From a virus: DNA of 29,958 nucleotides. The stretch covers positions 1-29,958 of the IMG/VR virus record IMGVR_UViG_3300014493_000019. One strand, 5' to 3'. Both the position numbers and the translations under genes were made by a program. Each line of letters opens with the position of its first letter. Positions within the stretch are counted from its first letter, which is position 1. Of this stretch, positions 2,981-8,460 are shown piece by piece. The notes below the pieces were generated by a model. The model was not told the DNA's origin. It searched no databases and saw only the letters and a list, made by a program, of their open reading frames with translations.

Positions 2981-3300
2981 CCGAGAAGTGGCCGGGATTT
3001 CAGTACGAGCAGGTGCGCGGGCTCGCGAACCGGCACATCGCGCGCTACCTTCGCACGCAGCGGAAGAACATGCGCCGGTTCTTCCAGGAGCGCGGGCTGT
3101 ACGCGTTCGCCGACCGCATGAACCAGATCCGAAACTCACGCCAGGGCATGCTGGCTAAAAATCGATACTTTCAGGAAGTGCTCAATGACTACGCAAAACT
3201 TTCCTCCCCTCCGGTCGTCACCTCTGATGTTCCGGGAGTTCCAGAAGGTGCAGGAGAACCGTCGCAAGCTGTCGCGGCTGACGAGGCCGGTAGTCCGTAA
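2977..3300 (+). CDS. Small basic hypothetical protein with overlapped C-terminus
   Basis: A 107-residue protein starting at the ATG that overlaps the previous stop. Only a weak GAAGG lies upstream, so translational coupling is likely. Residues 1-70 are Arg-rich and helical (ARYLRTQRKNMRRFFQERG) and could bind nucleic acid. The last about 38 residues become Pro/Gly/Ala/Glu-rich and lie over the start of the next gene in another frame. There the third codon positions of this frame lose their usual GC preference, suggesting the other frame is under stronger selection. No family is recognised. A shorter ancestral protein that ran on into the neighbour is a plausible explanation. Confidence 0.55.
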   Translation: MTEKWPGFQYEQVRGLANRHIARYLRTQRKNMRRFFQERGLYAFADRMNQIRNSRQGMLAKNRYFQEVLNDYAKLSSPPVVTSDVPGVPEGAGEPSQAVAADEAGSP

Positions 3301-3415
3301 GCTGATCGGCGTCCCGACCTGGATCTGCCACATGCGCCACCACGGGATGCAGCAGCCCGGGTTCGGTCTGTCGCCAGCTGAGGCGTACAAAGACTGGAAG
3401 CGCCGCCAGTGGTGA
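3185..3415 (+). CDS. Small hypothetical protein overlapping the preceding gene
   Basis: A 76-residue basic protein. The ATG at 3185 has AGGAAG at 3173-3178, a good spacing, although the start lies 116 bases inside the preceding gene. From about 3225 on its codons show the strong GC third-position bias of this phage, supporting this frame as genuinely translated. The C-terminal half has a distinctive pattern (GVPTWICHMRHHGM, then AYKDWKRRQW) with one Cys and several His that could bind metal. It ends in a GTGA overlap with the polymerase gene, so it is probably co-translated with it. Function unknown. Confidence 0.6.
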   Translation: MTTQNFPPLRSSPLMFREFQKVQENRRKLSRLTRPVVRKLIGVPTWICHMRHHGMQQPGFGLSPAEAYKDWKRRQW

Positions 3416-5631
3416 AGCTTCTCTTCCTGGACACGGAAACTAGAAGTCGGCTCGACATCAGCGTCGGGACTGACCGCTACACGCGCGCCGCTGAGTGCAT
3501 TATCGTAACGTACGCGTTCGTTACCGGGCCAGCGAAGATTTGGTTTCCGCGCGTAGATCCGCTACCCCCACAGGATTTGCTAGACGCGATCAATGACCCG
3601 GAGTTTTTACTCCTGGCCCATAATGCCGCCTTTGATAGACTTATACTTTCCCGCTCGCTAGGGCTGCACACAGAGATCCGCCGCTGGCGGTGCACTATGG
3701 CAGCAGCTTCCGCGCACGGTCTCCCGGGCTCACTCGAAGGTCTGGGTTCGGTCTGCATGCTGACCATCGACGAGGCGAAGCTGGTCGACGACAAGTCTCT
3801 GATCCACACCTTCTGTGAGCCGCAGCCTGCCACGGGCAAGTTTATTGAGCCGGAGGATAAGCCGGAGGAGTGGGCGCGCTTCTGCGCGTACGCCGTCCGT
3901 GACACGGAGGCGCTCCGCACGATCTTCAACCGCATGCCGGCCGTGAACTACGCGGGCGTGAACCTCCGAAGCTGGATGCTCGACCAGCTGATCAACGAGC
4001 GCGGCTTCGGCTTCGACGTGAAGCTTGCGCAGGCGGCGTCCGACTTTCTCGACGCGGCGCGCGAGGCGTCGCGCAAGGTGATGCGCGCGAACACCGACAA
4101 CCAGATCGGCTCGGCGACGCAGGCGAAGCGGCTGCTCGCGTACATCCGCAACCGTTACGATATCGATATCGAATCCCTCAAAGCAGGAGATGTGCGTGAC
4201 TGGCTTGAAAGTGACGACCTGGACCCAATTCTTCGCACTGTTCTCGAAGAGCGGCTTGAAGCTGGAAAAAGTGCTGGTAGTAAATGGAAGCGGGGACTTG
4301 CTTTGGTTGGCCCCGAAGCGCGCATCCGCCACTGGTCCCGTTGGTCTGGTGCGGGCCGTACAGGCCGCCATAGTGGACGCGGGCTACAACCACACAACCT
4401 TCCACGTCCGTCTATCACCACAAGGCGCCCTCCGGGACACCCGAGAGCTGGACGAATCGAGCTGGAGCCGGTTAAAGCAGATACTATTGACGATATCATC
4501 ATCCCAGGAATCTACTCCGGCGCTGCACTGAACAACCCGCTCGTCTACGGCGGCCCGTTTGAGGCCGCCGCGATAGCTTTGCGCCACGGGATTGTCGCGG
4601 CTCCAGGTAACGAGTTAATGGTCGGCGACTTCAAAAATATAGAGAGCGTCATTACGGCATGGCTAGCTGGCGAGGCGGCGCAGCTCGAAGCATTTCAATT
4701 CTCGTTCGATAATCCGAAAGATAAATCCAAAGACCCTTACCGTATGCTAGCCGGCAAGATGCTTGGCAAGCCGCCAGCGGAGGTGAACGACTCGGAGCGT
4801 CAGATGGGGAAGGTATGCTTGCTTGCTTTTAGTTTTGGCGGCGGTGTCGCGGCCCTCGTTAACATGACCATAGCGTATCAAATGGACATCGAACCTTTGG
4901 CGGCTATCGTGCTACCAACAGCTACGACAGAGCAACTGGAGAAAGCTAATAAAGCCTGGGAGCGCGCGTTTTTAACAGGCGGGGATTTAGAGTTAGAGCG
5001 CGATGCGTACATGGCGTGCGACGTGTTGAAGCAGGCTTTCAGAGCCGCGAACCCCGCTATCAGTCAGATGCGATATGACCTAAACACCGCTATCCTTGAG
5101 GCGTGCGCAGACAAGAGCGGTACCGTGTATCACGTCGCGCGCTGCAAGGTTTGGTGTAACGCATCTTTTTTGGTTATTGAGCTACCCAGCGGCCGAAGGT
5201 TGCTGTATGCGTCACCGCAGCTTAAAGTAGAGGAAATAGAAGACCCCCTTGGGGGCAAGGCGTGGAAAAGCCGCTACGTCACATATTTAACGGTTAGAGG
5301 AAGGTCTTGGCGACGTGAACGCGCCTGGTCTGGCCTGTATGTCGAGAACGTAGTTCAGGGAACAGCGAACGACGTATTAAGAGCGGCCATGTTGCGGCTA
5401 CATGATGACACGCTGACGGTGCCGGAGATCAAGGCGTACCTCGACACGCTGGAGCCGTACGCACGGACTGCAATAAATTTACATGTGCATGATGAGGTGA
5501 GTTTGGACTGCCCCAAAGGAAGCTATTCTGAGTCTAGGTTCCGTTCAGTATTAACCGCCAAAGAGCCGTGGATGGCGGGGCTACCAGTCGCCGCCGACAC
5601 GTGGGTCCACCACAGATATGGGAAACGGTAA
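3409..5631 (+). CDS. Family A DNA polymerase with 3'-5' exonuclease domain
   Basis: A 740-residue replicative polymerase. The start is GTG at 3409 or the adjacent GTG at 3412, overlapping the upstream stop. The N-terminal proofreading domain shows Exo I (D8-T-E10), Exo II (N72-A-A-F-D76) and Exo III (Y161-x3-D165). The polymerase domain has GAGRTGR (about 314-320), motif A (G-D407-FKNIE), motif B (R464-x3-K468, ending F476-G) and motif C (H694-D695-E696). Positions equivalent to E. coli Phe762 and Tyr766 appear as Leu472 and Phe476, which may affect nucleotide discrimination. The enzyme would replicate the phage genome with the neighbouring SSB and helicase. Codon usage is patchy: the stretches around 3540-3690, 4170-5390 and 5470-5630 are much poorer in GC at third positions than the rest. 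A second well-initiated frame lies inside it at 4196-4531. Confidence 0.93.
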   Translation: MVKLLFLDTETRSRLDISVGTDRYTRAAECIIVTYAFVTGPAKIWFPRVDPLPPQDLLDAINDPEFLLLAHNAAFDRLILSRSLGLHTEIRRWRCTMAAASAHGLPGSLEGLGSVCMLTIDEAKLVDDKSLIHTFCEPQPATGKFIEPEDKPEEWARFCAYAVRDTEALRTIFNRMPAVNYAGVNLRSWMLDQLINERGFGFDVKLAQAASDFLDAAREASRKVMRANTDNQIGSATQAKRLLAYIRNRYDIDIESLKAGDVRDWLESDDLDPILRTVLEERLEAGKSAGSKWKRGLALVGPEARIRHWSRWSGAGRTGRHSGRGLQPHNLPRPSITTRRPPGHPRAGRIELEPVKADTIDDIIIPGIYSGAALNNPLVYGGPFEAAAIALRHGIVAAPGNELMVGDFKNIESVITAWLAGEAAQLEAFQFSFDNPKDKSKDPYRMLAGKMLGKPPAEVNDSERQMGKVCLLAFSFGGGVAALVNMTIAYQMDIEPLAAIVLPTATTEQLEKANKAWERAFLTGGDLELERDAYMACDVLKQAFRAANPAISQMRYDLNTAILEACADKSGTVYHVARCKVWCNASFLVIELPSGRRLLYASPQLKVEEIEDPLGGKAWKSRYVTYLTVRGRSWRRERAWSGLYVENVVQGTANDVLRAAMLRLHDDTLTVPEIKAYLDTLEPYARTAINLHVHDEVSLDCPKGSYSESRFRSVLTAKEPWMAGLPVAADTWVHHRYGKR
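4196..4531 (+). CDS. Candidate overprinted gene inside the polymerase gene
   Basis: A 111-residue frame in +1 relative to the polymerase. It has AGGAG at 4185-4189 exactly 6 bases before a GTG at 4196; an in-frame ATG at 4190 is too close to the site. Counting by hand, about 68% of its third codon positions are G or C, while the polymerase frame over the same bases has about 48%. The high-bias part of the polymerase just upstream is near 90%. The predicted protein has an ordinary composition, with a hydrophobic segment (residues about 22-40), a long helix-like middle and a Ser-rich end. I recognise no family. The polymerase frame is certainly used here because it encodes the conserved GAGRTGR motif. 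This remains a hypothesis, weakened by the polymerase staying GC3-poor downstream where no second frame exists. Confidence 0.4.
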   Translation: MTGLKVTTWTQFFALFSKSGLKLEKVLVVNGSGDLLWLAPKRASATGPVGLVRAVQAAIVDAGYNHTTFHVRLSPQGALRDTRELDESSWSRLKQILLTISSSQESTPALH

Positions 5632-6149
5632 TGGCGTACAAAGATCCAGACGAAAGTCGTTCAAAAAGTCGCGCACGATGGGCAGCGAATCGGGAAAGGC
5701 ACAGCGCGCAGCGGACCGCCGCCTACGCCGCGGATCGTGAAAATAAGCAGGCGGAGAACCGCGCGTATTACAGCGCCAACAAGGAAAGGCTGCAAGCACG
5801 TCGTCGCGAACTTCGTTTAACTAACATAGAGGCGGTACGCGCACGGGATCGCGTTTCCAATAGAGCGAAACGCAAAGCAAACCCGGAAAAGTATCGAGTG
5901 TACATGAGAAAGTTTAAAGGGCTGCCGCTACCCACCAGGCCGGCTCCGGCATCGTGCGAATGTTGTGGGCAGCCGCCGGGTAAGAAATCATTAGCGCTAG
6001 ACCATTGCCACGTGTCCGGTACGTTCCGTGGCTGGCTCTGTGGACGATGTAACCGCAGTATCGGCCAGCTAGGCGATAGCATCGAAGGTTTGATGAATGC
6101 GGTCCGCTACCTTCAGCGCGCCGCGCAGTCGGAGGTGCCGCATGGATGA
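5631..6149 (+). CDS. Endonuclease VII-like His-Me finger nuclease with repeat N-terminus
   Basis: A 172-residue protein whose ATG overlaps the polymerase stop (TAATG). Residues 109-160 form a T4 endonuclease VII-type treble-clef nuclease: zinc ligands C109-x2-C112 and C137-x2-C140, the catalytic D124-H125 and H127, and N141. This family cleaves branched DNA such as Holliday junctions or works as a nicking HNH enzyme. Residues about 19-95 are basic 15-residue repeats (for example AANRERHSAQRTAAY, AADRENKQAENRAYY) that probably form a long DNA-binding helix. The first residues, MAYKDP, and their codons match the start of the nuclease gene at 6576. Third-position GC is lower than in neighbours, consistent with horizontal acquisition. 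It may resolve replication intermediates before packaging or be a free-standing mobile nuclease. Confidence 0.85.
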   Translation: MAYKDPDESRSKSRARWAANRERHSAQRTAAYAADRENKQAENRAYYSANKERLQARRRELRLTNIEAVRARDRVSNRAKRKANPEKYRVYMRKFKGLPLPTRPAPASCECCGQPPGKKSLALDHCHVSGTFRGWLCGRCNRSIGQLGDSIEGLMNAVRYLQRAAQSEVPHG

Positions 6150-6575: not shown

Positions 6576-7091
6576 ATGGCGTACAAAGACCCTGAAAAGA
6601 AGCGCGCCTATCAGGCGGCGTGGCATGCTGCGCACCGCGAAGAAGAGCGTGCCAAAAGCGCCGAGTATCGCGCCATGTACCCGGACAAGGTGCGCGCGTC
6701 ATGCGCCGCGTACGACGCAGTTCACCGCGAAGAACGGCGCGCGTACGCCGCAGCATTCGCTGCCGCGAATCCAGAGAAAATACGAGCGCGCGCAGCCGCG
6801 TATCGCGGCAGCCATCCAACCGAAGCGAAGGTGGAAAAGTATCTGGTAGACCGCGTCGAGTTGTTGGGGGGTATGTGCCCGAAGTTCAGTGATCCTGGTA
6901 GGCGCGGCGCGCCAGATAGACTCGTGTGCCTACCAGGCCACCCTACATACTTCGTCGAGCTGAAGCGTCCGAAGCTAGGAAAGTTAGACGCGCATCAGAT
7001 TAGGTATCACGCATCACTTCGAGCGGCCGGTCAGAGAGTGTGGGTTATTTGGAGTAGCGAGGGTGTCGATGACTTCTTTGCCGAAATTTAA
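6576..7091 (+). CDS. VRR-NUC domain nuclease with 15-residue repeat N-terminus
   Basis: A 171-residue protein. Residues about 82-171 form a VRR-NUC (PD-(D/E)XK) domain: helix with E83/E87, G111-A-P-D114, then E128-L-K130, Q141 and the end VWVIWSSEGVDDFF. VRR-NUC enzymes are Holliday-junction or flap nucleases, often beside phage helicases; the SNF2-type gene follows with a 23-base overlap. Residues about 17-80 are four near-perfect 15-residue units ending in Tyr or Phe (for example RAMYPDKVRASCAAY, AAANPEKIRARAAAY). The start MAYKDPE and the repeats are shared with the endonuclease VII-like gene at 5631, although the catalytic folds are unrelated. Only a weak ribosome-binding site is visible, so coupling to the upstream gene (one-base gap) is likely. 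Confidence 0.85.
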   Translation: MAYKDPEKKRAYQAAWHAAHREEERAKSAEYRAMYPDKVRASCAAYDAVHREERRAYAAAFAAANPEKIRARAAAYRGSHPTEAKVEKYLVDRVELLGGMCPKFSDPGRRGAPDRLVCLPGHPTYFVELKRPKLGKLDAHQIRYHASLRAAGQRVWVIWSSEGVDDFFAEI

Positions 7092-8460
7092 GCCGCGCGA
7101 CTACCAGCAGATTGGTACGCAGTTCATGATCGACCACCCGCGCTGCATGATCATCGCGGAGCCGGGCATGGGGAAAACCGGCATGACGCTGTCGCTGCTC
7201 GGCGCACTGAAGCTGGTTGGATCCAACTTCCTACCCGCGCTAGTGCTCGCACCGAAGCGTGTAGCTGATGTTGTGTGGGCCGGTGAAGCGAAGAAGTGGT
7301 CGACCTTCAGCGACCTGTCGGTGGTTCAGATCACGGGCACGGAGAAGCAGCGGCTGGAGATACTCAGCGCGCCGCGGTCGGATGTGTACATTTGTAATTA
7401 TGAGCTGGTAGAGTGGCTTGTGAACTTGTGGCCGCAAGAGAAGTGGCCGTTCCGCGTCATCGTCGCCGACGAGTCGAGCCGGTTGAAAGGGTTTCGCCTC
7501 AACAAGGGTACGAAGCGCTCGACCGCGCTCGCGAAGATATCTCAGTTCACAGGTCGATGGATTTGCTTAACTGGAACACCATGTCCGCTGGGGCTCAACG
7601 ATTTGTGGGGTCAATATTATTTTCTGGACCAGGGCCAGCGGCTCAAGCGCTCGTACACAGCGTTCATGGAGGCATACTTCATCGAGAACCAGTACACGAG
7701 ACGGATCACCATGCAGCACGGCGCGGAGGCCGCCATACATGACGCAATCAAAGACATCACCATTGTCTTCCGCGCAGAAGATTGGTTAGATGTAACACAG
7801 CCCCAACTTTTACCCGTAGAGTTCGAGCTGCCGCCGGCCGTCCGCGCGCAGTACAAGCGTATGGAAAAAGAATTCTTTCTGGAGGTCGATGACGCGCAGA
7901 TCGAGGCGGGCACCGCCGCGATCAAGTCCTCGAAGCTGCTGCAAATCTGCGCCGGCAGCATCATAGATACTGAGACAGGAGAGACGCATGAGGTACACGA
8001 CTCCCGGCTGGAAGCGCTCGACGACGTCCTGGAGCAGATTGAACCTGAACCTCTACTGGTTAGTTACTGGTGGAAGTCTGACCCTCCCCGCATCCTGGCG
8101 CATCTGGCTCGCAAGAAAATTCTGGCGCGGGTATACCATGGGAAGCAGGATGAACAAGACTGGAACGCGCGCAAGTTCCGGGTGCTCCTCCTCCAGGAGC
8201 AGAGCGCGTTCGGGCTGAACCTGCACGGACCCTGCCGCGACATTCTGCATTACAGCTACACCTGGAGCGCGGAGCTGTGGCAGCAGATGGTGGAGAGGGT
8301 CGGCCCAGCGCGCCAGGCCCAGGCTGGTAAAAAGGCGGCGGTTCGTGTATGGTATGCCGTAGCGAAAGGTACTGTCGATCAGGACGTGATCGACAGCAAT
8401 TTTGGAAAGATAACCGTAGAGCAGGCGTTGAAGCGCGCCCGCGCGAGGAGCAGACAATGA
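7069..8460 (+). CDS. SNF2-type DEAD/DEAH-box helicase or translocase
   Basis: A 463-residue SF2 ATPase. The ATG at 7069 is chosen over a GTG at 7063 because GAGGG (7059-7063) then has proper spacing. The Walker A motif is A30-E-P-G-M-G-K36-T37 and motif II is V-A-D134-E135-S-S, the SNF2-like variant of DEAH. Motif III appears as LTGTPCPLGLNDLWGQYYFLD. The C-terminal RecA-like lobe contains the region QQMVERVGPARQAQAGKK, where motif VI arginines are expected. Such phage proteins move on duplex or branched DNA and support replication, recombination or repair, and often sit next to a VRR-NUC nuclease as here. The ends overlap both neighbours, showing tight translational linkage. Confidence 0.9.
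   Translation: MTSLPKFKPRDYQQIGTQFMIDHPRCMIIAEPGMGKTGMTLSLLGALKLVGSNFLPALVLAPKRVADVVWAGEAKKWSTFSDLSVVQITGTEKQRLEILSAPRSDVYICNYELVEWLVNLWPQEKWPFRVIVADESSRLKGFRLNKGTKRSTALAKISQFTGRWICLTGTPCPLGLNDLWGQYYFLDQGQRLKRSYTAFMEAYFIENQYTRRITMQHGAEAAIHDAIKDITIVFRAEDWLDVTQPQLLPVEFELPPAVRAQYKRMEKEFFLEVDDAQIEAGTAAIKSSKLLQICAGSIIDTETGETHEVHDSRLEALDDVLEQIEPEPLLVSYWWKSDPPRILAHLARKKILARVYHGKQDEQDWNARKFRVLLLQEQSAFGLNLHGPCRDILHYSYTWSAELWQQMVERVGPARQAQAGKKAAVRVWYAVAKGTVDQDVIDSNFGKITVEQALKRARARSRQ

Follow-up and report, generated by a model that had tools for sequence, protein, structure and literature searches.

The sequence analysed here is an IMG/VR virus record of 29,958 bp (the window), which carries a family A phage DNA polymerase gene whose product matches annotated phage DNA polymerases over its full length at about 29–34% identity (tblastn). 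Wholly within this gene lies a second open reading frame (ORF), offset by +1 and terminated by the TGA at 4529–4531 (Table 1). The Endonuclease VII-type gene downstream begins at a TAATG on the polymerase stop; copies related to it occur near the polymerase in L002, L003, L004, L006 and L118. Also located beside the polymerase are genes for a DUF2800 protein (possibly PD-(D/E)XK; 671–1996), an Enc34-type ssDNA-binding protein (2001–2681) and an SNF2-related helicase (7063–8460).

Table 1. Features of the polymerase locus, in window coordinates.
Feature	Position	Strand	Remarks
Family A phage DNA polymerase, 740 aa	3409..5631	+	ORF and full-length tblastn matches
Putative overprinted gene, 111 codons, +1 relative to polymerase	4196..4531	+	
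Shine-Dalgarno-like AGGAG	4185..4189	+	6 nt before GTG; GGAG core in 9 of 12
Alternative in-frame ATG, abutting AGGAG	4190..4192	+	Window, L007, L025
Likeliest start codon, GTG	4196..4198	+	Retained in 10 of 12
Possible secondary start, GTG	4211..4213	+	ATG one codon later in five relatives
Most constrained core of the overlap	4219..4353	+	Synonymous observed/expected 0.43
Endonuclease VII-type gene	5631..6149	+	Pfam Endonuclease_7, E 7.9e-16

All relatives used for comparison are metagenomic. Ten of them have polymerases of roughly 79–89% identity (L002–L007, L025, L027, L028 and L029), L030 follows with 62%, and L026 and L117–L119 with 56–61%; L114 is a partial sister of L030 and derives from the same contig as L116. 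Since the window, L002 and L007 are near-identical over the block around the ORF, they were counted as one, and the distinct ORF sequences number only ten. A search of genome contigs for further relatives returned distant polymerases only. The near-identity of the window with L007 and L002 spans about 4175–4600 and gives way to about 66–80% identity further downstream, the pattern of a recombination mosaic. Additionally, at about 4429–4443 the polymerases of the window's clade are about five residues longer than those of L026 and L118, near the point at which the L030 polymerase is interrupted.

The +1 frame and its start signals

An earlier note on this DNA, made from the letters alone, had proposed that a GTG preceded by a well-spaced AGGAG opens a frame of 111 codons and that the signal covers the conserved polymerase motif GAGRTGR. 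All of these elements are present, and the motif lies inside the ORF. The codons underlying the start signals are unusual for these genes. The GTG at 4196 requires CGT for Arg263 of the polymerase, a codon with a mean usage of 0.125 elsewhere in these genes, whereas the Shine-Dalgarno core is formed by GGA (in 9 of 12 sequences), with a usage of 0.098; GCA and GGA, which underlie the AGGAG, are both rare codons in these polymerases. The start and Shine-Dalgarno codons are thus used elsewhere in these polymerases at only 8–13%, yet they are conserved here.

The earlier note had also named loss of the AGGAG/GTG pair in relatives as an outcome that would speak against the gene. Most sequences keep its elements (Table 1), but the pair is missing in L003 and L030. 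L003 has an in-frame TTG with a GAGGG six bases upstream of it, and L030 has only the downstream ATG as an in-frame start; both exceptions are compatible with turnover of the start site, of which they are no proof. This downstream ATG, one codon past 4211, arises in L004, L025, L027, L029 and L030, in which TCC GAT replaces AGT GAC, and the ATG at 4190 is replaced by ACG in most relatives.

The base composition first described by hand count was reproduced by measurement, with a third-position GC content (GC3) of 0.68 in the +1 frame against 0.48 in the polymerase frame over the ORF, and the polymerase just upstream, put near 90%, reaches 0.94–0.96 at 3859–4158. The accompanying caveat, that the polymerase remains GC3-poor downstream, is true of the window but is specific to its lineage: in most relatives, polymerase GC3 is about 0.7–0.97 on both sides and 0.33–0.67 over most of the ORF. 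The dip is therefore local and shared in most relatives, which resolves the caveat. Outside the block shared with L002 and L007, the window's polymerase is GC3-poorer than those of most relatives.

Synonymous constraint and conservation of the +1 amino-acid sequence

The +1 frame is uninterrupted over the ORF in all 12 ORF-clade sequences, whereas the +2 frame contains 3–9 stops. Summed over eight distinct sequences, +1 stops number zero inside the ORF, 9–32 in each 54-codon window clear of it, and 6–32 when all windows not wholly inside it are taken, including those that straddle its ends. Under synonymous resampling with codons drawn from the remainder of the polymerase, the frame stayed open in only 0.6–10% of trials per sequence; shuffling the codons present in the region itself kept it open in 6–87%.

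Synonymous change in the polymerase is most strongly reduced within this region, and the limits of the reduction follow the ORF. Over 4207–4530, the ratio of observed to expected synonymous divergence is 0.60, while none of 429 windows of equal size elsewhere falls below 0.83; L002 and L007 were left out of both this statistic and the stop counts in windows. The constraint is concentrated in a core at 4219–4353, with 0.43 against a minimum of 0.76 among 45-codon windows in the rest of the gene. It is weaker in the second half (4354–4530, 0.72), and divergence is back to normal at about 4470–4530, so that the C-terminus of the putative protein is less certain.

Conservation is also evident in the +1 amino-acid sequence itself, beyond what the conservation of the polymerase predicts. 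When the codons of L030 were freely resampled among synonyms, the similarity of its +1 product to those of the window's clade stood above the null with z of 4.6–6.6; the outgroups L118 and L026, treated in the same manner, gave z of −0.1 to 1.4. Under a null that preserves how many nucleotides change in each codon, the +1 frame remains positive in 12 of 12 ORF-clade pairs (z 0.6–3.5), which share sequences and are not independent, whereas the +2 frame scatters about zero (z −1.6 to 0.8). Furthermore, at about 4141–4380 L030 resembles the window's clade more than L118 in its nucleotides, while its polymerase amino acids are closer to L118, a discordance as expected if a +1 protein holds the synonymous sites. 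One antisense frame is positive in some pairs; it was rejected, as its codons are those of the +1 frame in reverse complement and 2–10 stops interrupt it in each ORF-clade sequence. The other two antisense frames, which are broken in most relatives, were rejected as well.

Nuclease genes at the ORF stop

In two relatives, a gene for a homing-type nuclease begins exactly where the ORF ends, at a TAAATG junction formed on the ORF's stop, and the two nucleases belong to different families. L029 carries there (3146–3505) a gene for a NUMOD4/HNH_3 endonuclease that lies inside the polymerase gene in another frame. The polymerase frame itself nevertheless remains open over 854 codons, an outcome reached by chance in 0.2–1% of synonymous versions; only one carrier of this type of insert was found. 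The junction suggests that translation of the L029 nuclease is coupled to the overprinted ORF. A hidden, out-of-frame HNH endonuclease has been described in ShiLan (PMC11855218), and the L029 insert, as distinct from the window's ORF, resembles it in that an HNH gene lies out of frame, the polymerase frame is intact and no intron is matched. However, the ShiLan nuclease has no detectable ribosome-binding site, whereas that of L029 starts at the TAAATG on the stop of the overprinted ORF.

In L030 (3888–6545), the polymerase is interrupted, and thereby split in two, by an Endonuclease VII-type gene (4984–5364), 38% identical to the one downstream of the window's polymerase. The polymerase frame stops shortly past the GAGRTGR region, while the +1 ORF continues to the TAAATG at which the endonuclease gene begins; the second polymerase ORF follows, starting at an ATG that overlaps the endonuclease stop. 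No Rfam match to an intron was found in L029 or L030. The C-terminal polymerase ORF, compared between L030 and L116, shows dN of 0.037 and dS of 0.18 (dN/dS about 0.2), which indicates purifying selection, and the split polymerase is thus probably functional. In L114:1-313, 99% identical to L030 over the ORF, most of the endonuclease has been deleted, the polymerase is still split and the ORF is kept. Genes split by homing endonucleases are known, and PMC10448857 mentions a split ribonucleotide reductase gene. The L030 polymerase is similar in being split into two ORFs through an Endonuclease VII-type gene; the likeness concerns only L030 and L114, where, as a difference, an overlapping ORF bridges the junction.

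The insertion in L030 amounts to a natural experiment, in which two overlapping coding roles have been separated. The C-terminus of its ORF lies outside polymerase coding sequence, and the displaced second polymerase segment contains many +1 stops. This C-terminus resembles those of L003 (p <0.0005), L005 (p 0.0045) and the window (p 0.019); with L004, L025 and L027, three of the nine pairwise tests, the similarity is not significant. Its score against the profile ranked second when placed among 2000 shuffles, a modest similarity, and a helix is predicted in the last part of the L030 ORF at the same place as in the model for the window's clade. It appears that each copy has kept one of the two frames, which is supportive rather than decisive.

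Predicted product, origin and interpretation

AlphaFold2, given the window's sequence as query, predicts a compact domain for the product (pLDDT 79, pTM 0.70), with elements in the order helix-strand-strand-helix-strand-strand-helix, and the same order is obtained with the L030 sequence as query (pLDDT 81, pTM 0.72), both models having used the same 10-sequence alignment. Predicted tryptic peptides of the product, in the window's sequence, include VLVVNGSGDLLWLAPK. Pfam, PHROGs and NCBIfam gave no credible match, the best E-values of 0.02–0.2 each being obtained for a single member, and a sequence search of the PDB returned designed alphaRep repeats only (E 0.02 or weaker). Using tblastn, no match to the ORF product was found in 50,697 phage records; family profiles, phage records and scans of relatives together yielded no homologue outside the clade, and Foldseek found none at E 0.001 or better in the PDB and BFVD. 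The VIA list obtained with the window model was headed by T7 gp1.2 (Z 4.4, rmsd 4.3 over 80 residues), which is below the level of trust; this dGTPase inhibitor was not among the matches listed for the L030 model. hhalign against the single T7 sequence gave a probability of 0.4% and an E-value of 0.14 over 11 columns, and the candidate was dropped. A literature search found no report of this overprinted gene; it did turn up papers on Rz/Rz1 (PMC5295617) and on viral overlapping genes (PMC8227390).

In the polymerase tree, the ORF carriers are separated from L026, L118 and L119 by one branch (support 95/86); with the ORF columns removed, the tree does not resolve where L030 belongs. The ORF is absent from L026 and L118/L119, which serve as outgroups, and the polymerase itself is widespread, so that the ORF would be younger than the polymerase frame, by a single change on the tree; the simplest interpretation is that it arose once. 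The possibility that L030 acquired the ORF by mobile transfer, together with its nuclease, was considered and rejected: in this block its polymerase amino acids lie nearer to those of L118, and one branch sets the carriers apart, and vertical descent is therefore preferred.

Taken together, the open frame, the coextensive synonymous constraint, the start signals and the conservation of the +1 amino acids support the earlier proposal of a gene overprinted within the DNA polymerase gene. On this comparative sequence evidence, we consider it very probable that one phage clade carries, in the +1 frame of its polymerase gene, an independently translated gene. The constraint could instead act on the nucleic acid, through an RNA structure, an origin or a regulatory site, with the open frame as a by-product. 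Such a reading could draw on the peak of constraint in the 135-nt core, which is not uniform over the ORF, and on several identical stretches. However, RNAalifold on nine sequences gave a covariation of +0.17, which is effectively none, with both sides changed in only 4 of 87 pairs; no carrier has a stop anywhere in the frame, the +1 similarity exceeds a null that preserves counts of nucleotide change, and the start and Shine-Dalgarno codons are conserved, all of which make this account improbable. Even less credence is given to the ORF as a mere translational leader, or relic, for the endonuclease genes at its stop, with its amino acids irrelevant: the two TAAATG junctions fit that role, but most carriers have no nuclease there and still conserve frame and amino acids, L114 retains the ORF after losing most of its nuclease, and a globular fold is confidently predicted.

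Entry into the +1 frame by ribosomal frameshifting, which would produce a fusion to the N-terminal part of the polymerase, is compatible with the window, L004, L007 and L029, whose +1 frames are open well upstream of the GTG. L002, L003, L006, L027 and others, however, have a +1 stop only a few codons away from the GTG, which would confine any shift site to that short stretch; the conserved Shine-Dalgarno sequence and start codon account better for entry, and frameshifting is accordingly rated as highly unlikely. Least likely of all is that recent recombination or gene conversion has homogenised the block, so that low synonymous divergence would be unrelated to a second protein. The window, L002 and L007 are indeed 99–100% identical over about 4219–4580, with the window 20–35% different from both downstream, and homing nucleases are known to co-convert the flanks of their insertion sites. 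Yet L030, which is too divergent for recent exchange, has the same excess, its polymerase amino acids in the block remain closer to L118, and L002 and L007 had been excluded from the constraint statistics.

For the preferred reading, an overprinted gene, we propose that ribosomes on the polymerase mRNA would initiate internally at GTG 4196 after the AGGAG and synthesize a soluble alpha/beta protein of roughly 111 residues. The protein would have been born de novo. The simplest placement of this event is in the common ancestor of L030/L114 and the window's clade, once the lineages of L026 and L118/L119 had branched off, and selection would have maintained the protein from then on. Because it shares the polymerase transcript, it may act at the time of DNA replication; most likely it would serve as a small protein with an accessory or host-takeover role, binding some protein of replication or nucleotide metabolism, with no specific target supported. 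As ribosomes would terminate at the ORF stop inside the polymerase gene, the nuclease genes at the TAAATG in L029 and L030 could be translated by termination-reinitiation. A wider and rather doubtful extension is that the ORF serves as a translation platform within an essential gene and its stop as a recurrent landing site for homing endonucleases, expressed by reinitiation; the polymerase gene could thereby be occupied without intron or intein, and a functional split polymerase may have been enabled in L030/L114.

Complete genes in another frame inside a longer phage gene, with starts of their own, are familiar from lambda Rz1 within Rz and phiX174 E within D. The present case differs in its proteins and role: a DNA polymerase gene serves as host, and the ORF is predicted to encode a soluble alpha/beta domain for which no relatives are known. 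Overprinted phage genes being already known, what is unusual here is the host gene and the relation to homing endonucleases. The authors of PMC11855218 ask how out-of-frame homing endonucleases inside genes come to be translated, and the insertions in L029 and L030 bear on this open question. If the interpretation is true, the locus would illustrate well how a protein is born de novo within a conserved part of a replicative DNA polymerase, here with a predicted globular fold and no known relatives, and would be an example of the genes that annotation misses.
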